A stretch of DNA of 25,829 nt, from positions 1 to 25,829 of the IMG/VR virus record IMGVR_UViG_3300006802_006270; one strand, written 5' to 3'. Shown here one piece after another: positions 2,143 through 25,829 of the stretch (position 1 is the stretch's first letter; each line of letters starts with the position of its first letter). Source of the DNA: a virus. The translations under genes were made by a program, and so were the position numbers. The notes beneath the pieces were generated by a model. It had not been told where the DNA came from, ran no database searches, and saw nothing but the letters and a program-made list of their open reading frames with translations.

Positions 2143-2179
2143 TATGTGCCAGTATATCTGGTTCAACAAGTTTTGTCAA
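2143..2179 (-). repeat. 37-bp direct repeat, copy 1 (contains promoter P1)
   Basis: This 37-bp stretch is identical, in the same orientation, to 7922-7958. It includes the whole promoter and the 8 bases after the -10. The two copies bracket about 5.7 kb carrying gp43, the PP-loop gene and both cytosine methyltransferases. Confidence 0.92.
2151..2179 (-). promoter_or_regulatory. sigma70-type early promoter P1 (CmoA-like/uvsX)
   Basis: On the minus strand the -35 TTGACA (2179-2174) and -10 TATACT (2156-2151) are separated by exactly 17 bp, and the -10 is followed by GGCACAT. It lies 25 bp upstream of the ATG at 2126. The -35 sits inside the last codons of the upstream cytosine methyltransferase. 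It is identical over 37 bp (2143-2179) to the gp43 promoter. Confidence 0.85.
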
Positions 2180-3305
2180 CACTTTTATTGTATGGTTCTA
2201 TCACATTCTTATAGACAGCTTCAGCAATGGCCTTCATCATTAATGATGGTACCATTCTTCCACATCTCTCTATCTTTTGTGACATAGAACCAGTTACTTT
2301 AAAATCATCTGGTAAAGCCATTATACGCTTTATCTCATTAATTGTTAATCTTCTTTTTTCTATAAAATGACATACATCTGCATTTGTTGTAATTGTGGGT
2401 GCTGGATGGTGTCTAGACATTTTCTTAACATTGAAATGCCATCCTTTTGGATGAAAGTCATTTCCACCTAATACTTTGTCTGGGTCATCTGGCATCAGAG
2501 ATGCCGTATCTTTATAGTGTGCAGAATTTAACCAAGTGTCTGTACACCATTTAACTTCTTCTTTATCTAATTCTAAATCCTCTAGTGCCTCTCCTGCTGT
2601 TACTACTTCTTTATTCTCTTGTGGAAAGATACTAGCAATGTTCATAAATGTTAATCCTATGGCCTCTGTGACATCCTCACGGACTGCTATGAAGATAACT
2701 CGCCTTCTAGACTGTGGTACTCCAAAATGTGATGCATTCAAAATCTTATATGATACATCATAACCAATTTTTTCAAATGTATTTACAATCTCATTTAATT
2801 TTAGCTTGGCTTCTCCCGCCAATAAGCCTGCAACATTTTCTCCTATGATTACTTTAGGTTTAATTTCTTCTGCAACTCTAAGATATTCAAAGAATAAGTC
2901 TTCTATGTTTTCTACTACTTTATTGTCTGAATACTTTTTAGTTTTACCCCAACCATCAGAATGTTTTGAACCAGACTTTCCTAGTGTACCACACATTGAA
3001 AAAGCAGAACACGGTGGGGAACCATCTAATATATCTAGTTCACCTTTTTGTATTCCAGCAGTTTCTAAAAAGTCTTTACCTGTAAGTTCTTTTATATCAT
3101 CAGGTAGTATTTTTGTATCTGGGTAATTTTCTTTGTAAGTAATTCTTGCTTGTTCTACAAACTCATTTACACAAAGTATATTTCCACCTGCAAGTCTGTA
3201 ACCTGTAGATGAACCACCGCCACCAGCAAAGGTAGATATGACACTAAACTTATTTTGTGCCGATGCTTCTTTTACATCTTTTAAATTATACTTTGAATAT
3301 TTCAT
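2163..3305 (-). CDS. DNA cytosine-C5 methyltransferase (paralogue B)
   Basis: A 380-residue 5-methylcytosine DNA methyltransferase. Motifs in order: I FAGGGGSSTG at 26-35 (SAM binding); IV GSPPCSAFS with catalytic Cys99; VI ENV at 156-158; VIII QSRRR at 198-202; a variable target-recognition region at about 225-285; then a HHPAPTIT segment and a C-terminal GRMVPSLMMKAI helix fitting motifs IX-X. All catalytic residues are present, so it should be active. It is closely similar along most of its length to the gene just upstream, with which it shares the start MKY..YNLKDV, and it begins 1 nt after that gene's stop with no good ribosome site of its own. The pair therefore looks like a tandem duplication with divergence in the target-recognition region. 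Target sequence is unknown. Likely roles are protection from host restriction or the first step of a further modification. Confidence 0.92.
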   Translation of the reverse strand: MKYSKYNLKDVKEASAQNKFSVISTFAGGGGSSTGYRLAGGNILCVNEFVEQARITYKENYPDTKILPDDIKELTGKDFLETAGIQKGELDILDGSPPCSAFSMCGTLGKSGSKHSDGWGKTKKYSDNKVVENIEDLFFEYLRVAEEIKPKVIIGENVAGLLAGEAKLKLNEIVNTFEKIGYDVSYKILNASHFGVPQSRRRVIFIAVREDVTEAIGLTFMNIASIFPQENKEVVTAGEALEDLELDKEEVKWCTDTWLNSAHYKDTASLMPDDPDKVLGGNDFHPKGWHFNVKKMSRHHPAPTITTNADVCHFIEKRRLTINEIKRIMALPDDFKVTGSMSQKIERCGRMVPSLMMKAIAEAVYKNVIEPYNKSVDKTC

Positions 3306-3306
3306 A

Positions 3307-4497
3307 TTAAAAATCTATACATCTTCCTTTTGATTCCCAATCATTATAACGAGTAGGTTCTAAACCATCTTTTCTTCCACCTATTTCTTTAGGGTTTTTT
3401 TTATAGTATGGTTTCAATACTTTTTCATAAATTGATTCTGCAATTGCTTTCATCATAAGTGGTGGTACCATTCTGCCACATCTTTCTGACTGTTGATTAA
3501 AACTACCTGTTAGTTTAAAGTCATCAGGTAATGACATCATTCTTTTTGTTTCTTTAACTGTAAATGTTCTTGGTTCATGCCAATGCATCGCTCCACCTGT
3601 TGCTGTAATTGTTGGAGCAGGTTTATGTCTAGATGTTTTTTTCATATTAAAGTGATGACCTTTAGGATGATAATCACAACCTGTTTCTACTTTGTCTGGG
3701 TCATCTGGCATCTTTAACCAAGTTTCATAGTGAGAAGTTTTTTTAAATTTTTCTATTAGTGTGTCTGCTTCTTTTCTATCTACTTCTATATCACTTAAAC
3801 AATCTTCTAATGTAACCACTTCTTTACTTTCATCTGGGAATAAACTATTAATATTCATAAATGTTAATCCTACTGCCTCTGTAACATCCTCGCGAACAGC
3901 GATAAAGATAGTTCTTTGTCTAGTTTGTGGAACACCATAGTGAACAGAATTTAAAACTTTGTATGATACATCATATCCTATTTCTTCAAATGTATTTACA
4001 ATTTTAAAAAGATAATTTTTTGCTTCTCCAACAGTTAGTCCTTTAACATTTTCAGCAATAATTACTTTTGGTTTTAAATCTTTTGCTATTCTTAAAAACT
4101 CAAAAAATAAATCCTCTATGTTTTCTACCTTTTTACCATCAGAATAATTTTTAGTTTGACCCCAACCTTTAGAGTGTCCACCTTGTACCATTGCACCAGA
4201 TACTGAGAATGCAGAACATGGTGGGGAACCATCAAAGATATCTATGTCACCATACTTGTTAAAATCTTCTGCAGTAAGTTTTTTTATATCATCTGGTAAT
4301 ACAGGTGTGTTAGGATAGTTTTCCTTATATGTATTTATTGCTTGTTCAACAAATTCATTTACACATAATATTTTACCACCAGCCAAACGATAACCTGTGG
4401 AACTACCACCACCACCAGCAAAAGTTGATACTACTGTAAACTTCTCTTGTTCTGATGCCTTAACGACATCTTTTAAATTATAAGGTTTATATTTCAC
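3307..4497 (-). CDS. DNA cytosine-C5 methyltransferase (paralogue A)
   Basis: A 396-residue 5-methylcytosine DNA methyltransferase with all key motifs: I FAGGGGSSTG at 26-35; IV SPPCSAFS with catalytic Cys94; VI ENV at 149-151; VIII QTRQR at 191-195; a KPAPTITAT segment; and a C-terminal GRMVPPLMMKAI helix. The target-recognition region between VIII and IX differs from paralogue B, with different spacing and substitutions, so the two may recognise different sites. It has about 20 extra C-terminal residues (GGRKDGLEP...) that B lacks. The ATG at 4497 lies inside the end of the PP-loop gene (11-nt overlap), so the two are probably coupled. It is in the gp43 transcription unit, which places methylation at the time of phage DNA replication. 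Activity is inferred from intact motifs. Confidence 0.92.
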   Translation of the reverse strand: MKYKPYNLKDVVKASEQEKFTVVSTFAGGGGSSTGYRLAGGKILCVNEFVEQAINTYKENYPNTPVLPDDIKKLTAEDFNKYGDIDIFDGSPPCSAFSVSGAMVQGGHSKGWGQTKNYSDGKKVENIEDLFFEFLRIAKDLKPKVIIAENVKGLTVGEAKNYLFKIVNTFEEIGYDVSYKVLNSVHYGVPQTRQRTIFIAVREDVTEAVGLTFMNINSLFPDESKEVVTLEDCLSDIEVDRKEADTLIEKFKKTSHYETWLKMPDDPDKVETGCDYHPKGHHFNMKKTSRHKPAPTITATGGAMHWHEPRTFTVKETKRMMSLPDDFKLTGSFNQQSERCGRMVPPLMMKAIAESIYEKVLKPYYKKNPKEIGGRKDGLEPTRYNDWESKGRCIDF

Positions 4498-7921: not shown

Positions 7922-7958
7922 TATGTGCCAGTATATCTGGTTCAACAAGTTTTGTCAA
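7922..7958 (-). repeat. 37-bp direct repeat, copy 2 (contains promoter P2)
   Basis: Identical over 37 bp to 2143-2179 in the same orientation. It lies between the small 74-residue gene and gp43. Perfect identity across non-coding as well as promoter positions argues for recent duplication or recombination rather than convergence. Confidence 0.92.
7930..7958 (-). promoter_or_regulatory. sigma70-type early promoter P2 (gp43 operon)
   Basis: -35 TTGACA (7958-7953) and -10 TATACT (7935-7930) with a 17-bp spacer. The first base of the gp43 ATG is 12 bp beyond the -10, so the expected leader is about 6 nt and lacks a Shine-Dalgarno sequence. Confidence 0.87.
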
Positions 7959-10078: not shown

Positions 10079-10460
10079 GTTTACCGCCTTTATCTAAACT
10101 ATTCATGATAGTTTTTATTTGTTCATCATTTAGTATACTGAGAGCTGATTTTGCTTTTTCATTACTATATCCATAATACTCTTTAACACATTCTAAATGT
10201 TTTTCTTTCTTCGCTTTCAACCAAGGTGTATACCTTTGTCTTGTTCTTAGAGTATTTAGTAAAAAATCAAACTGTAATTTCTTATCTGCCTGATGATTCA
10301 TGTTCATTTCATTGACTAGAAAGATAGTATCTTGAAATGGAGCAAGACATTTGTTTACAATATAGGGTGGATATTTCTTTTCCCACATCTCATCTTCACC
10401 ATCCATAAGTTTCTCTTTGGAAGTATTGATAGCTTTTAGATATTCTTTTAATTCATGCAT
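10068..10460 (-). CDS. 62: Clamp loader small subunit gp62
   Basis: A 130-residue homologue of the T4 gp62 clamp-loader subunit (187 residues in T4; shorter in many T4-like marine phages). It joins four gp44 ATPase subunits to open the gp45 ring. Diagnostic segments: the N-terminal ELKEYLKAIN..KEKLMD, WEKKYPPYIVNKCL with the conserved hydrophobic/Pro pattern, DTIFLVNEMN and DKKLQFDFLLNTLR.R.R. It lacks ATPase motifs, as expected. The start at 10460 overlaps the end of the third oxygenase gene by 8 nt, with GGCGGAG upstream. The oxygenase gene is inserted between gp44 and gp62, which are adjacent in T4. Confidence 0.9.
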   Translation of the reverse strand: MHELKEYLKAINTSKEKLMDGEDEMWEKKYPPYIVNKCLAPFQDTIFLVNEMNMNHQADKKLQFDFLLNTLRTRQRYTPWLKAKKEKHLECVKEYYGYSNEKAKSALSILNDEQIKTIMNSLDKGGKHGK

Positions 10461-11175
10461 TATCTAATCTCCGCCATGGTATGGTATCTGCATGGTTTGT
10501 TTCATTATATAAATTAACACTATCACCAGCAACTTGTATACCACTATCTTTTTTAAATCCTTTGTATGACATATTAAATGCAATACTTCTTCTTTCACCA
10601 GAGCCTTGAAATGGATATACTTGATGAAATAAACTATTAGGAAATAATAAACACATGCCAGGTTTTGGTTTTACTACAAAAGAACCTGTTGTAAAAATAT
10701 TATCAGTATTACAAAAAGTAAATTCTATTTCACCATCCTTATCTCTTTTACCAGGTATGTTTCTAGGTTTCATAGCAGGAACTTTTAAATATAACACAGC
10801 ACTTATCTGACAATGTGAATGATTGTGTTGTGGATTATATTCATTTTCATATTGATGTACAGTCCAAATAGATTGCATTTGAGTTTTAATATTTATAGCA
10901 TTATATAAATCTTGTTGATGAGAATTTATGTAAGCTTGTTCAATATAACTTCTAGATAGTGCATGAAAGATATCCATACATTTTTTTTCTTCTAACATAG
11001 AATGTGGTATTTCACTTTCTTTTTTTATGACACCAGCAAGTCTTGGGCCCATGTCACCTTTTTCTTTAACTTCATCAGCAATTCCATTAAGTTTTTTAAT
11101 AAATCCCTCTGGTAATTGTGCCATCATAACTAAAGGCCCAAATGGTTTCATCACTTGTACTTTATCTATTTCCAT
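10453..11175 (-). CDS. 2OG-Fe(II) oxygenase of the phage PF13759/TIGR02466 type
   Basis: A 240-residue putative dioxygenase. The core starts with IWTVHQYENEYNPQHNHSH (metal region; H117 and H119), then a strand SAVLYLKVP, then LLFPNSLFHQVYPF with distal H184, and GERRSIAFNM with Arg195/196 as the probable 2-oxoglutarate ligand. This order matches the family of putative 2OG-Fe(II) oxygenases common in marine T4-like phages. The substrate is unknown. The ATG at 11175 is preferred because it overlaps the gp44 stop by only 10 nt; an alternative TTG at 11205 would add 10 residues. It is embedded between gp44 and gp62, so it is made with the clamp loader. It is a diverged paralogue of the two oxygenases at 12806-14610. 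Confidence 0.85.
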   Translation of the reverse strand: MEIDKVQVMKPFGPLVMMAQLPEGFIKKLNGIADEVKEKGDMGPRLAGVIKKESEIPHSMLEEKKCMDIFHALSRSYIEQAYINSHQQDLYNAINIKTQMQSIWTVHQYENEYNPQHNHSHCQISAVLYLKVPAMKPRNIPGKRDKDGEIEFTFCNTDNIFTTGSFVVKPKPGMCLLFPNSLFHQVYPFQGSGERRSIAFNMSYKGFKKDSGIQVAGDSVNLYNETNHADTIPWRRLDNA

Positions 11176-12101
11176 TTCACATCTACCATAATTTCTGTTA
11201 GACAAGCCAGTAAGTTTATTTCTTGGTCTGCCACAAACGCTGACTGATACTGGTACTTAGATAAGATAAGAACTGCATGAGGTATTGTACCAGCAGTAGC
11301 ATACTTATAAAGATTATCGTAAATCCTGCGATAAATACGGACAGGGTCATTGTCCAAATTATGTACAATCCATTTTCGTACATTAGTGAATTCCTGAGCC
11401 TTGAGTGCGGTAATAAGTTCATTTATATTTACCTCTGATATGTTGACAAGAATACCAGCATCTATTTGACCTGATGTAGAGTACCTTTGTAATTCGTTTA
11501 TTGTTCTACGCCAATCTGGGAAATATTTAGTTAATACTTCCATTACAACCCTAGGTTCATATTCTATATTTTCTGTTTCAAGAATATTTTTAACACGACC
11601 AAAAAATTCTTTTGCAAGTTTTGGTTTATCATCTTTTGCAATAATAAAATCAATCACACTACATCTTGAATGTAGTGGGTCAATTAATCTATTCTTATAA
11701 TTACAAGTAAGAATGAACCCACAGTTTTTGTGAAATTCTTCCATGAACCCACGAAGTGCAGGTTGTGTAGATTGGGGATTTAAATAATCTGCCTCATCAA
11801 GTATGACATACTTACGACCACCTTCAAGTGATACAGTAGAGGCAAAGTTTTTAATTTTATTTCTGAGTACATCAATACCAGATTCTTCTGAACCATTTAC
11901 GAGTAATGATGTTGCACCAATTTCATCAAGCATGGCTTTGGCAACAGTAGTCTTACCGACACCAGGCCCACCTGATAAAATTAAGTTTGGTATGTGTTTG
12001 TCTTCTACAAATTCCTTAAAAGTCTTTTTTAAGTTCTCTGGTAAAATACAGTCATTGATTGTTGTGGGTCTGTATCGTTCAACCCATAAAAAAGTTTCCA
12101 T
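11166..12101 (-). CDS. 44: Clamp loader large subunit gp44 (AAA+ ATPase)
   Basis: A 311-residue homologue of T4 gp44 (319), the ATPase subunit of the clamp loader that places the gp45 ring on primer-template DNA. It begins with WVERYRPTTINDCI, the classic clamp-loader N-terminus. Walker A GGPGVGKTT is at 44-52, Walker B ILDEAD ends with the DEAD box at 102-105, and the SRC arginine-finger motif is at 145-147. All ATPase residues are intact. It lies 18 bp after gp45. The ATG at 12101 is preceded by GGATTATATATT, and that region shares TATATTATG with the gp45, gp43 and 14610 starts (possible RegA site). Confidence 0.97.
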   Translation of the reverse strand: METFLWVERYRPTTINDCILPENLKKTFKEFVEDKHIPNLILSGGPGVGKTTVAKAMLDEIGATSLLVNGSEESGIDVLRNKIKNFASTVSLEGGRKYVILDEADYLNPQSTQPALRGFMEEFHKNCGFILTCNYKNRLIDPLHSRCSVIDFIIAKDDKPKLAKEFFGRVKNILETENIEYEPRVVMEVLTKYFPDWRRTINELQRYSTSGQIDAGILVNISEVNINELITALKAQEFTNVRKWIVHNLDNDPVRIYRRIYDNLYKYATAGTIPHAVLILSKYQYQSAFVADQEINLLACLTEIMVDVKWK

Positions 12102-12805: not shown

Positions 12806-13588
12806 TTAAGATTTAATTTCTTTATTTAATGTTGGTGATTTAAATTGTGCGACAGTTTCTTTACTATCTCTAATATTAAAGTTAGCAGACATTGTTCTTC
12901 GTTCACCTTCTCCGAAAAATGGCATAACACAATGTTGTAACCAATTAGGAAATATCATCATAAATCCTTTTTTGGGTTTTATATATTCTTGTGCATCTAA
13001 CTTTAATCTATAAACATCATGAATAGTATTTGTTGATGTGATTAAACCTGTATGACCATCAATGTCACCTGTTGCATTATGTAATTGAGGGAATGATGGT
13101 TTTTCTTCAATACACTTTGGTACTTTTAAATAAAGTATCATAGACATACCTGCAGGTGTTTGACATCCGTGTGCATGTAAAGGATTGTAATCTCCAGCAT
13201 AACTATGTACAGTCCATGCTTCAAAAGCCTCTGCAATACTATCACGATTATAACCAGTCTTATCATTTAGTAAACTAGTTGCACATCTATCTATAACAGT
13301 TTTAAAATCTTTTCCCATTTTATCATCTAATGGAAAAGTCCATTGTGCAGATTTTTTATCTTGATTAATCTGTCCAACTAACTGACCTTCGTGAGATACA
13401 TTACTAGGTATAATAACTTCATCAATGTGATTATTAATATCATCAATAAAGGCATCTGGGAATTGTACTGCCATTAGTTTATATGACGGTATAGTTTTTA
13501 TCTGTGCGTGTGTATCAAAAGATTGATTTTCTTTTTTAGATTCTTCCTTTTTTACGCCTAAAGAATCTGATAAATCTTTTAAACTCAC
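12806..13588 (-). CDS. 2OG-Fe(II) oxygenase of the phage PF13759/TIGR02466 type
   Basis: A 260-residue putative dioxygenase. After an N-terminal Lys/Glu-rich stretch of about 30 residues, the catalytic part has WTVHSYAGDYNPLHAHG (H138, H140), an ILYLKVP strand, and a double-stranded-helix second half with FPNWLQHCVMPFFGEG (H219) and ERRTMSANF (Arg230/231, probable 2OG carboxylate ligand). It is clearly paralogous to the next gene upstream, sharing EVIIPxNV, the VGQI block and MPFF..ERRT.SAN. The start overlaps that gene's stop as ATGA, so the two are translated together, possibly as a heteromeric pair. It lies directly before gp45. The substrate is unknown. Confidence 0.87.
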   Translation of the reverse strand: MSLKDLSDSLGVKKEESKKENQSFDTHAQIKTIPSYKLMAVQFPDAFIDDINNHIDEVIIPSNVSHEGQLVGQINQDKKSAQWTFPLDDKMGKDFKTVIDRCATSLLNDKTGYNRDSIAEAFEAWTVHSYAGDYNPLHAHGCQTPAGMSMILYLKVPKCIEEKPSFPQLHNATGDIDGHTGLITSTNTIHDVYRLKLDAQEYIKPKKGFMMIFPNWLQHCVMPFFGEGERRTMSANFNIRDSKETVAQFKSPTLNKEIKS

Positions 13589-14610
13589 GACTGTTCACCA
13601 GAGTGGTCTTTTCTATAATGGTCACCAGTTAGTTTTTCTTTTAAAGTAATATTAATGTTTGCTGAGAATGTTCTTCTCTCATCATCTTCTTTATTACTAA
13701 AGAAAGGCATCACTCCATGTCTTAACCAACTAGGGAACATAATCAATGTACCAACTTCTGGTTTGATATACTCCTCTGTAATAGGTCTTAACATATTAAC
13801 ATCACGCATACCATTAGTACCCCAAGTTAAATATGTAAAACCATCTACTGCACCTGATGATTCATTTAACCCTTCAAAATTTTCTGATGGGTTTCCTAAG
13901 GTTGCAATACATCTAGGAACTTGTAAATACATAATACACGATACACCCATTGGTGTTCTAGTGCCATGGTCGTGTACAGGATTGTAATCACCACTATAAC
14001 TATGTACTGTCCACATTGATTCTGTAGAGGTATCACATTCTATTCCAACTGTTCTATTGACATATTCTTTTGCAAGTCTTTGTAGAACACCACTAAACAT
14101 TTCACCAACTTCATCACCTTCGTGTGGGAAAGTTAATTGTGCTGACCTTTCATTCTGTCTAATCTGTCCAACTAAACCTTTTGAATGGTCTACATTATTT
14201 GGAATAATAACTTTTTCTATATGTTCATTTATTTCTGTAGTGACTTCTGCAGGAAATTGACATCTCATTAAATGAACTGCAGCCTTTGGTCGCATTGCAA
14301 TTTGAATACCACCAGGGTTTTTTGGAACTTCCTCACCTGTATCTATTTGTTGTTCTTCTGAAGCTTTGTTTTGAGCATTTATCATATCTGCTCTTTTCAC
14401 TTGTTGTGTTTCTTCATTCATAATATTTTCACCTTTGTTTTTTGCATCATGTAGTGCTTTGTTATAATCTTCGATAGTAAATGGTCTGTCACCCATTTCA
14501 TTTGGTCTGATGATTTCAGATTTACCTGTTTCACTATTGAATCTATCAATTCCGCCTACGCCAACATCAATATCTTCAACACTTAATTTTATATCTTCTT
14601 TATCACTCAT
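13585..14610 (-). CDS. 2OG-Fe(II) oxygenase of the phage PF13759/TIGR02466 type, with N-terminal extension
   Basis: A 341-residue putative dioxygenase, the longest of three paralogues. The first 105 residues are polar and probably disordered (many Asp, Glu, Lys, Asn) and have no counterpart in the other two. The catalytic part has MWTVHSYSGDYNPVHDHG (H213, H215), a CIMYLQVPRC strand, FPSWLRHGVMPFF (H298) and ERRTFSANIN (Arg312/313). The gene is first after promoter P3, with AGGAATATATT before the ATG. Its 4-nt overlap with the next oxygenase suggests coupled production. Why a phage keeps three such enzymes beside its clamp genes is not known; hydroxylation of host or phage proteins, or of nucleic acid, are possibilities. 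Confidence 0.87.
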   Translation of the reverse strand: MSDKEDIKLSVEDIDVGVGGIDRFNSETGKSEIIRPNEMGDRPFTIEDYNKALHDAKNKGENIMNEETQQVKRADMINAQNKASEEQQIDTGEEVPKNPGGIQIAMRPKAAVHLMRCQFPAEVTTEINEHIEKVIIPNNVDHSKGLVGQIRQNERSAQLTFPHEGDEVGEMFSGVLQRLAKEYVNRTVGIECDTSTESMWTVHSYSGDYNPVHDHGTRTPMGVSCIMYLQVPRCIATLGNPSENFEGLNESSGAVDGFTYLTWGTNGMRDVNMLRPITEEYIKPEVGTLIMFPSWLRHGVMPFFSNKEDDERRTFSANINITLKEKLTGDHYRKDHSGEQS

Positions 14611-16926: not shown

Positions 16927-16961
16927 TTTGACCTCCTGTGGTCTTTCATTATATAATTTAG

Positions 16962-17035: not shown

Positions 17036-18241
17036 TTAGTAGTTTACCGCTCCACCGTCTTCATTAACAGTTTCATCTTCTGGGTCATCTAGATTTTCAT
17101 CTGAATCTGATATACTTTGTACATCTTCTCCAGCATCTATCTTAGTGTATAAGTCAAGGAATGATTCTTTTGTATCATCATCAAATCTTGATACACATAA
17201 CTCAATAGACTTCATTTTATCTTTGAAGATTGAGAACGCTTTCACAATGTGGTCAAGTCTTCTAGTAGAAATGATTTCATCAACTCCACCATCATAAAAA
17301 GTTTTTCTGATAACCTCTGCCCAAACAGTTAGATTGTCTGCAAACTTTTCATCTATCTTACCATACTTTTCCATAGAACCAAGTATGATTTTCTTTTCAA
17401 CTTTTGAACTAGGATATGGTTGTTCGATTGTAACCGCAAATCTTTCTAAGAAAGCTTCGTTAAGAATGTTAGTACCAACGAATCTACCATCATCAGAACC
17501 TTTACCCTTAGTGTTGGCTGTTGCAATCACATTGAAACCTGGTTTTGGTGTAATCCACTTGTTAATCTTTTTAAGGAAGACACCCTTGCCTTCAAGAACT
17601 GGTTGTAACGCAAGTAACTTATTAGAACCTAAGTCACACTCATCAAGAAGTAAAGTACAACCTCTTTCCATTGCCTGAATAACAGGGCCTGGAACGAACT
17701 TAGTTTCACCATTAATTAATCTGAATCCACCAAGTAAATCATCTTCATCTGTTTCAATGGTAATGTTCACTCTAATCAATTCTCTTTTTAATTGACTATG
17801 TAATTCCTCTACCATTAATGTCTTACCATTACCTGATAGACCTGTGATAAAAACAGGATAGAACATTTTAGATTGAATCACTTTTTTAATTGTAGAACAA
17901 TGACCCCAAGGTACAAAACCCTCAAAGTGACTTGGTATCAGATTTTGAGTTTCTGTATTAGCCATAAGATTGATTGTAGCTTCAGGTTGACTTGTAGTAA
18001 CCTGTGGTGTCATAGTAACTTCAGGTGTATCTGATTCAGAATTAGAATTAGATGGTAACTGATATTGACCGTGGCCAACTCTGAATTCATCTTTCTTTAA
18101 CCATGAAGGTGATTTTAATCCAGCAGATTTTGCGAACTCATTAATTTCGTTTCTAGTTAGAATGGCACCATCACCAAACTTTTTAGAAGCAGCAATTACG
18201 AACTCTTGTTTTGCTGGGGTTAAGTCATTTATTGTTTTCAT
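17036..18241 (-). CDS. cobS: CobS-like AAA+ ATPase
   Basis: A 401-residue AAA+ ATPase of the CobS/MoxR group. In bacteria CobS pairs with CobT in the ATP-driven cobaltochelatase of aerobic cobalamin synthesis. Residues 1-62 are an N-terminal domain (ILTRNEINEFAKSAGLKSPSWL...) of the kind seen in phage CobS, then comes a Ser/Thr-rich linker. The AAA+ core has Walker A GLSGNGKT at 134-141, Walker B CTLLLDE at 194-200, a sensor-like VIATANTKG, and an arginine-finger-type FLERF. The C-terminal 30 residues are strongly acidic. It has its own promoter P4 and a leader of about 100 nt with a 15-bp palindrome, and ends at a strong terminator. It probably works with the CobT-like VWA protein just upstream. 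Cobalamin chelation or a MoxR-type remodelling role are both possible. Confidence 0.9.
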   Translation of the reverse strand: MKTINDLTPAKQEFVIAASKKFGDGAILTRNEINEFAKSAGLKSPSWLKKDEFRVGHGQYQLPSNSNSESDTPEVTMTPQVTTSQPEATINLMANTETQNLIPSHFEGFVPWGHCSTIKKVIQSKMFYPVFITGLSGNGKTLMVEELHSQLKRELIRVNITIETDEDDLLGGFRLINGETKFVPGPVIQAMERGCTLLLDECDLGSNKLLALQPVLEGKGVFLKKINKWITPKPGFNVIATANTKGKGSDDGRFVGTNILNEAFLERFAVTIEQPYPSSKVEKKIILGSMEKYGKIDEKFADNLTVWAEVIRKTFYDGGVDEIISTRRLDHIVKAFSIFKDKMKSIELCVSRFDDDTKESFLDLYTKIDAGEDVQSISDSDENLDDPEDETVNEDGGAVNY

Positions 18242-23450: not shown

Positions 23451-24514
23451 TCTAAGTCTAAGTCTTGTGCCTCTGTATATAAAGATTTCATTTGATTCTT
23501 TAATCTATCTTTACTTAAATCAATAGGTAAGTCATCAATGTATTTGTTTAGTAGTGTTACTGTGTCTTCTGTGTTTTCTACAATATCATCTGATACTGAA
23601 CTTGCATCTAAGTCTGAAAAATCTTCGACAATTTTTATATCAAAAGCATCTGCTGCATATAACTTGTCTAGGAATTGGTCAAACTGATATAAATCTTTTT
23701 TGTTTACTACAATGAGTTTAACATATTTGTTTGCATACTTTGTAGTATCATGTTCTTTATAGTTTTCTTTTGAATCATCATAATATATCTTTTCATATAT
23801 TGTATATGGGTTAACTATTCTTTCTAATTCCTTTGTTTCTGTATCATAGATATGGAATCCTTTTTTATCTTCCCAATCATTCCAATATATTTCATATGGT
23901 GTACCTAGATAATAGATTTGACCATCATCTGACTTGTGATGAAAATGCCCACTCATAACTGTATCAAACTTTCTAAAAAATTCTTTCTCACGGCCTCCTT
24001 GTGATATGATAACATTCTTGTTCATTTGAAAACCATTTATTTCTAGATGACCCATACATACATCAGCTTTAGTTTCATCAATCATACCCTCTGCATAGAT
24101 TTCATTTGATTGAGTAATCCACGGCATAAGTAGTATTGGTAAACCACCAAAGTCTACTTCTGTTGCTTCATCATAGATATGAATATTTTTGTGTTTACCG
24201 CCTAGTAATTCTGTAAGAGAATTTACTTCACTTGTGTTCTTATAATAGATATCATGATTACCGACTAACATATGTAAGTCAATTCCTAATACATTAAATG
24301 GTAATATAAATCTCTCTCTAAAATCTTTTGCTGTTCTATATGATACATACTTACGCCTATCAAAACAATCACCTAAATGTAATACTGTTTTAATATTGTT
24401 TTGTTGTAAATATGGAAAGAATATACCTTCATAAAATTTATAAAAGTATTCATTAAAATTCACATTATCATTTCTTGCGCCAAAGTGCGAATCCGTTATT
24501 AGTGCTATTTTCAT
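23447..24514 (-). CDS. 47: Recombination nuclease subunit gp47 (Mre11/SbcD-like)
   Basis: A 355-residue calcineurin-like metallophosphoesterase, homologue of T4 gp47 (339). Metal-binding motifs run in order: D-x-H at 8-10, GDCFDRR at 48-54, GNHD at 85-88, GHLE at 155-158 and GHFHHK at 189-194. It is the nuclease subunit that works with gp46, which follows directly (4-nt overlap). The C-terminal third (about 250-355) is acidic and probably contacts the gp46 coiled-coil base. Its ATG overlaps the gp55 stop by 1 nt (TAATG). Confidence 0.96.
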   Translation of the reverse strand: MKIALITDSHFGARNDNVNFNEYFYKFYEGIFFPYLQQNNIKTVLHLGDCFDRRKYVSYRTAKDFRERFILPFNVLGIDLHMLVGNHDIYYKNTSEVNSLTELLGGKHKNIHIYDEATEVDFGGLPILLMPWITQSNEIYAEGMIDETKADVCMGHLEINGFQMNKNVIISQGGREKEFFRKFDTVMSGHFHHKSDDGQIYYLGTPYEIYWNDWEDKKGFHIYDTETKELERIVNPYTIYEKIYYDDSKENYKEHDTTKYANKYVKLIVVNKKDLYQFDQFLDKLYAADAFDIKIVEDFSDLDASSVSDDIVENTEDTVTLLNKYIDDLPIDLSKDRLKNQMKSLYTEAQDLDLE

Positions 24515-25074
24515 TAAGTAGTTTCTGTATTAGAATTTTCTTCCATGAATTCCTCTAGGCCTTCAGGTAGTGTAGATTTCTCTTTTTTCTTTACTTTATA
24601 TACATCTTCATCAGGCAACATAATGTCTGGGTCAAAACCTCTTACATCATAAACTGTATCATCGCCTTCATTCACAGTATAGGTTTCATATTGTTGTTTC
24701 TCAATCATTTTATTTTTGATATGAGTTTGTTTCTTTTCTTTTTGAATTCTTCTTAAAAATGCATAGTATATAATTTGTGTAAAGTATGCGAAAGGATTCT
24801 TTGATTTGTCTGGGTCAAAGTTATGTATGTATTGTAAACAGTTTTCTATACCATCAGAAACCATTTCAGAACGATAAGTATAATTAATAAAGTTAGGTCT
24901 GTATGATAATCCATTTGCAATTTTTAAAAAACACTCACCTATGTAATTCGTTACTTGGGGTTTTTCTTCTCCAGCTTCTTCTGCCTCTTTACATAGTTCT
25001 TTCCACGCAATCATAGCTGCATGAAACTCTTTGTTGTCTATGTAGTGTGCACCTTTTTTCTTTGTTGTTGCCAT
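24514..25074 (-). CDS. 55: Late-transcription sigma factor gp55
   Basis: A 186-residue homologue of T4 gp55 (185), the small divergent sigma factor that directs RNA polymerase to late promoters of the form TATAAATA. The core SYRPNFINYTYRSEMVSDGIENCL.YI.NFDP..SKNPFAYFTQIIYYAFLRRIQKEKKQ is the family signature, corresponding to sigma region 2 (core binding and -10 recognition). It lacks regions 3 and 4, as expected. The C-terminal end is acidic and hydrophobic (LPEGLEEFMEE), compatible with the clamp-binding tail of T4 gp55. A good AAGGA ribosome site and promoter P6 precede it. Head of the gp55-gp47-gp46 unit, with order as in T4. Confidence 0.97.
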   Translation of the reverse strand: MATTKKKGAHYIDNKEFHAAMIAWKELCKEAEEAGEEKPQVTNYIGECFLKIANGLSYRPNFINYTYRSEMVSDGIENCLQYIHNFDPDKSKNPFAYFTQIIYYAFLRRIQKEKKQTHIKNKMIEKQQYETYTVNEGDDTVYDVRGFDPDIMLPDEDVYKVKKKEKSTLPEGLEEFMEENSNTETT

Positions 25075-25188: not shown

Positions 25189-25217
25189 TTGACAAACCAT
25201 GTTCAACCTTTTATAAT
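25189..25217 (+). promoter_or_regulatory. Perfect-consensus sigma70-type promoter P7 on the plus strand
   Basis: TTGACA (25189-25194), 17-bp spacer, TATAAT (25212-25217): both hexamers are exact consensus. The spacer carries TGTTCAACC, as in the minus-strand phage promoters, and the -10 is followed by CGCTGTG. It fires away from gp55 and into the 25261-25776 gene in antisense. No plus-strand gene follows within the window. Confidence 0.72.
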
Positions 25218-25260
25218 CGCTGTGTTCCAGCCGAGAATACTATATACTCTAAAGAGATGG

Positions 25261-25776
25261 TTAATGTTTAGTAGTACTACAAGGTATATCATTAAGTTCT
25301 TCTTCTGTTATTTCCTCTTTTACTAATTCTTTCTCTTTATTTTGACCACTTAATGCAGAAACATATCCATTAAACATTTTCCTTACTTCTTCCGTATTTT
25401 CAAATTCATCTTCTTCTTCGTATATATCTTCTTTCTTGGGTTGCATAATAGGTCCATTTGTTTCGGCATCAGCTGCACTATAAGAATCTAACATAAATTG
25501 ATAATAGTTATTTAACGCAAAAGAAGCCGAAGTGATTGTTATAATTGTTGACTTTTCAATATCAAACTCATCTGATTCTGTGAATGGTTGTAACCAACGA
25601 GATAAAGTTAATGCTTCAACAACACCTTTTTTAGTTACTCTGTTTTTCAATTCCATTTTTAAAGGATGTAATATATGTAGTTTATTTGATTCATTATCTG
25701 TTCGTGTAGGTATACAAGTACAAACGATACTCTCACCATTTGCCAATTTTATTACTCTAGTAGTGTTATCTGTCAT
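25261..25776 (-). CDS. Probable Sm-like-fold phage protein of unknown function
   Basis: A 171-residue protein. The N-terminal 95 residues (VIKLANGESIVCTCI ... LHILHPLKMEL ... LSRWLQPF ... FDIEKSTIITITSAS) follow the strand pattern of Sm/LSm-like proteins of T4-like marine phages: K-L-x-x-GE-x-I, a P-x-x-x near the third strand, W-x-x-PF and a final I-x-I-S strand. The rest is a helix (NNYYQFMLDSY) and a very acidic tail. RNA binding is possible by fold but unproven; I am unsure of the assignment. The ATG has an AAGGAT ribosome site. TATAAATA lies 27 bp before the ATG, so it may be a late gene, separate from the early gp55 unit, and the plus-strand promoter P7 makes RNA antisense to it. Confidence 0.75.
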   Translation of the reverse strand: MTDNTTRVIKLANGESIVCTCIPTRTDNESNKLHILHPLKMELKNRVTKKGVVEALTLSRWLQPFTESDEFDIEKSTIITITSASFALNNYYQFMLDSYSAADAETNGPIMQPKKEDIYEEEDEFENTEEVRKMFNGYVSALSGQNKEKELVKEEITEEELNDIPCSTTKH

Positions 25777-25819
25777 ATCCTTATCCCTAGATTGTATATC
25801 ACTATTTATATCCTTATCC
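25775..25819 (-). repeat. 12-bp direct repeat around the start of the Sm-like gene
   Basis: GGATAAGGATAT occurs on the minus strand at 25819-25808 and again at 25786-25775, 33 bp apart. The second copy is the ribosome site and first bases of the ATG. The first copy runs into the TATAAATA octamer and is not followed by a start codon. Confidence 0.55.
25803..25810 (-). promoter_or_regulatory. Possible T4-type late promoter (TATAAATA)
   Basis: An exact match to the T4 late -10 octamer on the minus strand, with the expected transcription start about 20 nt before the ATG at 25776, leaving room for the AAGGAT ribosome site. The gp55 sigma factor encoded next door makes such promoters expected. A chance match in AT-rich DNA cannot be excluded. 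Confidence 0.42.
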
Positions 25820-25829
25820 TGTCTATCTC

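Follow-up and report, generated by a model that had tools for sequence, protein, structure and literature searches.

The 3' end of the Sm-like gene in a group of T4-like marine phages is marked by a conserved promoter of sigma-70 type that points against the surrounding genes. In the window (the whole stretch of 25,829 nucleotides analysed here, IMG/VR record IMGVR_UViG_3300006802_006270) this promoter, called P7, faces the Sm-like gene from the spacer that separates it from gp55. According to its anatomy and conservation, the best reading is a predicted antisense RNA running into the 3' end of the Sm-like gene, as an earlier note on this DNA had proposed. Our tentative explanation (probability roughly 45%) is that P7 is an early sigma-70 promoter for an untranslated cis-antisense RNA that would brake the uvsW/Sm-like message in the style of lambda OOP or GadY.

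The window comes from a T4-like marine phage and is a block of minus-strand genes. Profile searches identified gp46, gp47, gp55 and the Sm-like gene, and our reading of the open reading frames adds probable uvsX, DNA polymerase, clamp and clamp loader genes. All window genes are on the minus strand. As stated in the earlier note, no plus-strand gene follows P7; indeed no credible one was found in the window, the nearby plus-strand frame being only 45 aa long and starting inside the -35 box. Six relatives with annotated stretches of 10-18 kb show the same orientation: every CDS is on the minus strand except one of 32 aa in Melnitz, located behind the promoter towards gp55. The genes ahead of the promoter in the named relatives include Sm-like, uvsW, uvsY, gp3 and gp23.

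Both the exact consensus and the phage-specific spacer words reported earlier for P7 were recovered (Table 1). Exact matches to TTGACA-N16-18-TATAAT occur twice in the window, at 25189 (plus) and 14665 (minus), for a chance expectation of 0.06 per window; two were never reached in 100 dinucleotide shuffles. TGTT or TGTC spacer words are carried by seven sites scoring at least 10/12, of which P7 lies on the plus strand and the other six on the minus strand. Since the predicted start is at 25224 and the Sm-like gene ends at 25261, about 37 nt of the predicted RNA are intergenic.

Table 1. Coordinates of P7 and of the neighbouring features in the window
Feature	Position	Strand	Remarks
P7 antisense promoter	25189..25217	+	-35 TTGACA 25189-25194, 17-nt spacer, -10 TATAAT 25212-25217; 12/12
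Inverted repeat GCTG-TGTTC-CAGC over the predicted start site	25219..25231	+	arms covary between phages
Predicted transcription start	25224	+	7 nt past the -10 box; inferred from sigma-70 spacing
Predicted antisense RNA, untranslated start before the Sm-like overlap	25224..25260	+	sequence kept in 38 distinct close relatives
Sm-like gene, 3' end faced by P7	25261..25776	-	phrog_471 6.5e-14; Pfam Sm_like below cut-off; profile match PDB 3by7
gp55 promoter TTGACA-17-TACTAT, back to back with P7	25105..25133	-	promoter scan
gp55, late sigma factor	24514..25074	-	phrog_234 5.8e-65

The window contains several other features. A second strong plus-strand site (16928-16957, TTGACC-18-TATAAT, 11/12) faces the 3' end of a CobS-like AAA gene (17036-18241, minus); it has no obvious counterpart in the genome promoter lists. 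The minus-strand promoters at 7958 and 2179 share the same letters from the -35 box through the -10 box and past it (TTGACAAAACTTGTTGAACCAGATATACTGGCACATA), like a duplicated promoter cassette. Two adjacent similar minus-strand genes (2163-3305 and 3307-4497) resemble cytosine-C5 DNA methyltransferases by translation alone. Three others on the same strand (10453-11205, 12806-13588 and 13585-14610) have similar cores of the form WTVH...YNP.H.H and look by eye like paralogues, possibly 2OG-Fe(II) oxygenases.

The plus-strand hexamers are near-invariant in 38 distinct close intergenic sequences where much of the remainder varies, and the block directly 3' of the -10 box is also conserved. Loss of the hexamers in close relatives, which the earlier note had named as evidence against a role for P7, was not seen. 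A broader sample was assembled by gp55 or Sm-like homology, never by the promoter itself, with six named phages added. Its 360 loci gave 355 with a gp55 match and 260 nt upstream, and 225 after removal of near-duplicates. An antisense promoter upstream of gp55 scores at least 10/12 in 194 of these 225 loci (86%), at least 11 in 142 and 12 in 65. The corresponding frequencies were 11.6%, 0.4% and 0 in dinucleotide shuffles (n = 1125) and 10.1%, 0.6% and 0.2% in random antisense windows of the same loci (n = 995). Many of the 31 loci below 10 have another gene directly upstream of gp55, and others hold weaker versions such as TTGACT...TACATT.

The promoter is found in cyanophages, in SAR11 phages and, in a weaker form, in a Methylophilales phage. 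At the same place it scores 12 in HTVC008M and Mosig, 11 in S-PM2, 10 in P-HM2 and P-SSM7, and only 9 or 8, depending on the scan, in Melnitz. Twelve further named cyanophages all carry it with TTGACA (scores 10-12/12), and that of Syn9 reaches 11/12. No such promoter was detected at 9/12 or above within 300 nt upstream of gene 55 of phage T4. In five loci (L073, L074, L075, L079 and L080) the spacer of the antisense promoter upstream of gp55 contains another TTGACA, 12 nt from the first.

The promoter marks the Sm-like 3' end rather than gp55. The Sm-like gene is present in 223 of the 225 loci according to profile search, within 230 nt of gp55 in 198 of them and separated from it by extra DNA in 25. 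A scan from -60 to +200 around the Sm-like stop found a score of at least 10 in 213 of the 223 loci, 9 in nine and none in one. The distance from the -10 end to the stop is 32 nt (median; 5-95%: 15-47). When Sm-like proteins were grouped by single linkage at 50% identity, the median score was at least 10 in all 29 clusters. At other gene 3' ends of seven genomes, used as a matched control, only 119 of 1144 reach 10 and 8 reach 11. In the 25 loci with inserted DNA the promoter is at the Sm-like stop (23 loci score at least 11, and one locus each scores 10 and 9); these loci fall into 6 Sm-like clusters, so that the separation events are fewer than 25. The promoter stays at the stop in 24 of these 25 loci and is present in 29/29 clusters, and it therefore belongs to the Sm-like gene. 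It is also found in S-SSM7, where the annotated neighbour of the Sm-like gene is not uvsW.

The predicted antisense RNA appears to be non-coding, as judged from its sequence. Across 213 relatives, ATG frames close to its start are short, with a median length of 7 codons compared with 16 for random windows. An antisense open reading frame was considered and rejected, the 20-aa frame of the window being lost in relatives. The earlier note had suggested looking for a plus-strand terminator within 300 bp; no terminator-like site exists on the plus strand from 25218 to 25829, and in seven genomes no terminator recurs at a fixed position, so that a short OOP-like RNA is not predicted. No consensus fold was obtained for the leader and the Sm-like overlap, either in the close set or by group, and single-sequence folds were no better than shuffles. 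The overlapped Sm-like 3' end shows no excess synonymous constraint, and the transcript is not unusually U-rich or A+T-rich. Rfam, whose families known from cyanophages include CfrI, gave no match in the window at the gathering score, a lax search of the window end returned chance hits only, and a tRNA search found none.

Directly after the -10 box many sequences carry an inverted repeat around TGT or TATGT, for example CGCTG-tgttc-CAGCG, AACGG-tgt-CCGTT or AACTCT-gtca-AGGGTT. A repeat score of 10 is reached by 73.7% of 190 distinct 26-mers versus 29.1% of shuffles, while a control set of 80 gp55 promoters gave 12.5% versus 12.8%; about a quarter of the sequences thus fall below this score, and related sequences are not independent. 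Among 154 distinct sequences, 54.5% have at least four of five Watson-Crick pairs, a share that dropped to 21.5% when the arms were re-dealt (28.6% at most in 200 re-dealings). The drop was also observed within groups: from 50.0 to 16.9% in Mosig-like, 64.3 to 17.8% in HTVC008M-like, 27.3 to 11.6% in window-like and 100 to 77.8% in S-PM2-like sequences. The arms thus covary, changing between phages and staying complementary. A hairpin in the plus-strand RNA is not the obvious reading since a start 6-8 nt after the -10 box would transcribe only the loop and the second arm. On the sense mRNA the repeat would form a hairpin after the Sm-like stop, without a U-tract; a role as sense terminator was rejected because the next sequence on that strand is ATTATA-like, with a mean of 3.2 T in 8. 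G.T pairs lean to the plus strand as the carrier of the repeat, not beyond re-dealt controls. The covarying start-site repeat is a new observation, and we know of no described counterpart.

Near-copies of the promoter and leader ahead of sense genes suggest that P7 is a working promoter. S-PM2 has a second promoter with a leader copy (21 of 24 letters) before a 114-aa sense gene, and Melnitz one (22 of 24) before a 79-aa sense gene. The leader parallel of P-SSM7 is limited to 16 of 24 letters and is no better than its other matches, yet stands behind an exact promoter; the remaining four genomes contain no clear second copy. The near-copies of S-PM2 (L145-L154) and Melnitz (L178-L185) are tens of kilobases away from the first, before small genes. 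A review (PMC2984593) links sigma-70 hexamers with early-gene homologues of S-PM2 and Syn9, and P7 is called early for this reason. Late-like words near uvsW and the Sm-like gene are sporadic. No account of P7 was found by title or opening of abstract (subscription papers and supplements lay outside this scope).

Like the promoters of lambda OOP and E. coli GadY, P7 lies in the gap between a pair of genes on one strand and is directed at the 3' end of the upstream gene. In lambda, the OOP promoter pO sits between cII and O. OOP is transcribed from a phage promoter placed past a stop codon and facing the gene, and is antisense to the 3' end of cII (PMC5415839); however OOP is short and terminated, with a known effect, whereas the P7 RNA is a predicted one for which seven genomes offer no consistently placed terminator. 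GadY arises from the gadX-gadW same-strand spacer and likewise overlaps the 3' end of the upstream gene in antisense (PMC7368042), but it is the product of a host gene, not of a phage, and it triggers mRNA cleavage and stabilises gadX, an effect that the predicted phage RNA is not known to have. Among T4-like cyanophages, S-PM2 makes the cis-antisense RNA CfrI (PMC2984593, PMC5931967). This RNA overlaps psbA and a homing endonuclease gene, in contrast to P7, and nothing in the window matches Rfam at the gathering score. Antisense transcription of T4 gene 32, the subject of a title cited in PMC3014915, is a further case in a T4-type phage, but concerns another gene, and T4 gene 55 has no comparable upstream promoter (see above).

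We infer the activity of P7, its early timing, and the sign and mechanism of its effect. P7 would be read early by the main sigma factor of the host, and the RNA would start just past the Sm-like stop, enter the gene and, unless stopped, continue into uvsW and uvsY. By pairing with the mRNA, by inviting cleavage by RNase or through collisions between polymerases, this transcript could hold back or trim the uvsW/Sm-like message early in infection. The brake would lift once gp55 takes over from the fading sigma-70 promoters. Early silencing of the Sm-like gene, raised in the earlier note, is plausible. In T4, UvsW is made from a late promoter and unwinds origin R-loops (PMC3016281); motA and asiA of T4 are reported as absent from the cyanophage members of the group (PMC2984593). 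Phages without MotA/AsiA could achieve with an antisense brake on uvsW/Sm-like what T4 achieves with its late uvsW promoter.

Alternatively, P7 may control traffic: its polymerases would meet those from the uvsW/Sm-like operon and limit read-through, making P7 an insulator without functional RNA. This is unlikely but has several points in its favour. No RNA sequence is conserved deep in the gene, neither fold nor terminator was found, the fixed place at the operon end suits a roadblock, and gp55 has its own sense-strand sigma-70 promoter (at least 10/12) in 88.9% of loci. However a roadblock needs no placement 15-47 nt from the Sm-like stop, and the conserved leader and start-site repeat are left unexplained.

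A serious rival to the brake, if a quite improbable one, reverses its sign: the RNA would pair with the uvsW/Sm-like mRNA and shield it from RNase E. Antisense RNAs are reported to protect mRNAs in cyanophage-infected Prochlorococcus, and antisense transcription is described in Kyanoviridae (PMC5415839, PMC10976474). A long RNA would also fit the missing terminator. Protection does not explain why this operon alone has a conserved promoter when other gene ends lack one, and the same promoter occurs in phages of SAR11 and Methylophilales hosts.

A bolder reading, which we consider a long shot, is that the Sm-like gene, accompanied by the antisense promoter in all lineages sampled, and the antisense RNA form one inherited unit. 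The repeat would be a new start-point control device (for instance, nascent RNA or non-template DNA might pair with the discriminator and set the RNA dose), and an Hfq-like Sm ring would bind the RNA, timing uvsW and the switch from origin- to recombination-driven replication.

Divergent coupling, in which P7 would shape gp55 transcription by competition or supercoiling, is very unlikely. The two promoters are back to back, their -35 boxes are at most 5 bp apart or overlap in 30 of 164 loci, and one palindromic -35 pair is common to Syn9, P-SSM4 and P-SSM7. Nevertheless the gap between the -35 boxes varies widely and, on insertion of DNA, P7 leaves gp55 and keeps to the Sm-like gene, which goes against the early-to-late link that the earlier note had suggested from this divergence. 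In several cyanophages (loci L134, L425, L432, L434 and L436) the divergent -35 boxes form a single palindrome, TTGACA-n3/4-TGTCAA, and the promoters nearly touch.

A T4-type R-loop origin, where the P7 transcript would prime DNA synthesis, is not supported and seems very improbable. T4 oriF and oriG combine a promoter with an A+T-rich unwinding element beside replication and recombination genes, and oriE uses an early promoter (PMC3016281). P7 likewise has replication and recombination genes as neighbours; the R-loop unwinder gene uvsW is near it and a broad skew change occurs 10-30 kb beyond P7 in several phages. In contrast to oriF and oriG, P7 has average A+T downstream (66.8% versus 67.0% in controls), and a skew switch at P7 was found in 0/7 genomes. 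In the SAR11 phages among these seven genomes, a wide region past P7 towards gp23 shows weakened GC and AT skew; the GC skew change of Melnitz lies on the opposite side of P7.

Finally, promoter-like sites are common in such A+T-rich DNA (73 of at least 9/12 in 10.8 kb versus 68 in shuffles), but a chance or relic promoter, including the leftover of a rearrangement envisaged earlier, is contradicted by its conservation in 29/29 Sm-like clusters and can practically be dismissed.

The conserved placement of P7 probably reflects an RNA that helps the phage to time its own genes. P7 would then represent a non-coding control element retained in cyanophages, in SAR11 phages and, more weakly, in a Methylophilales phage, with an exact RNA 5' end predicted for each phage. 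A candidate RNA regulator would thereby stand next to UvsW and a phage Sm-like protein, both of which are poorly understood.
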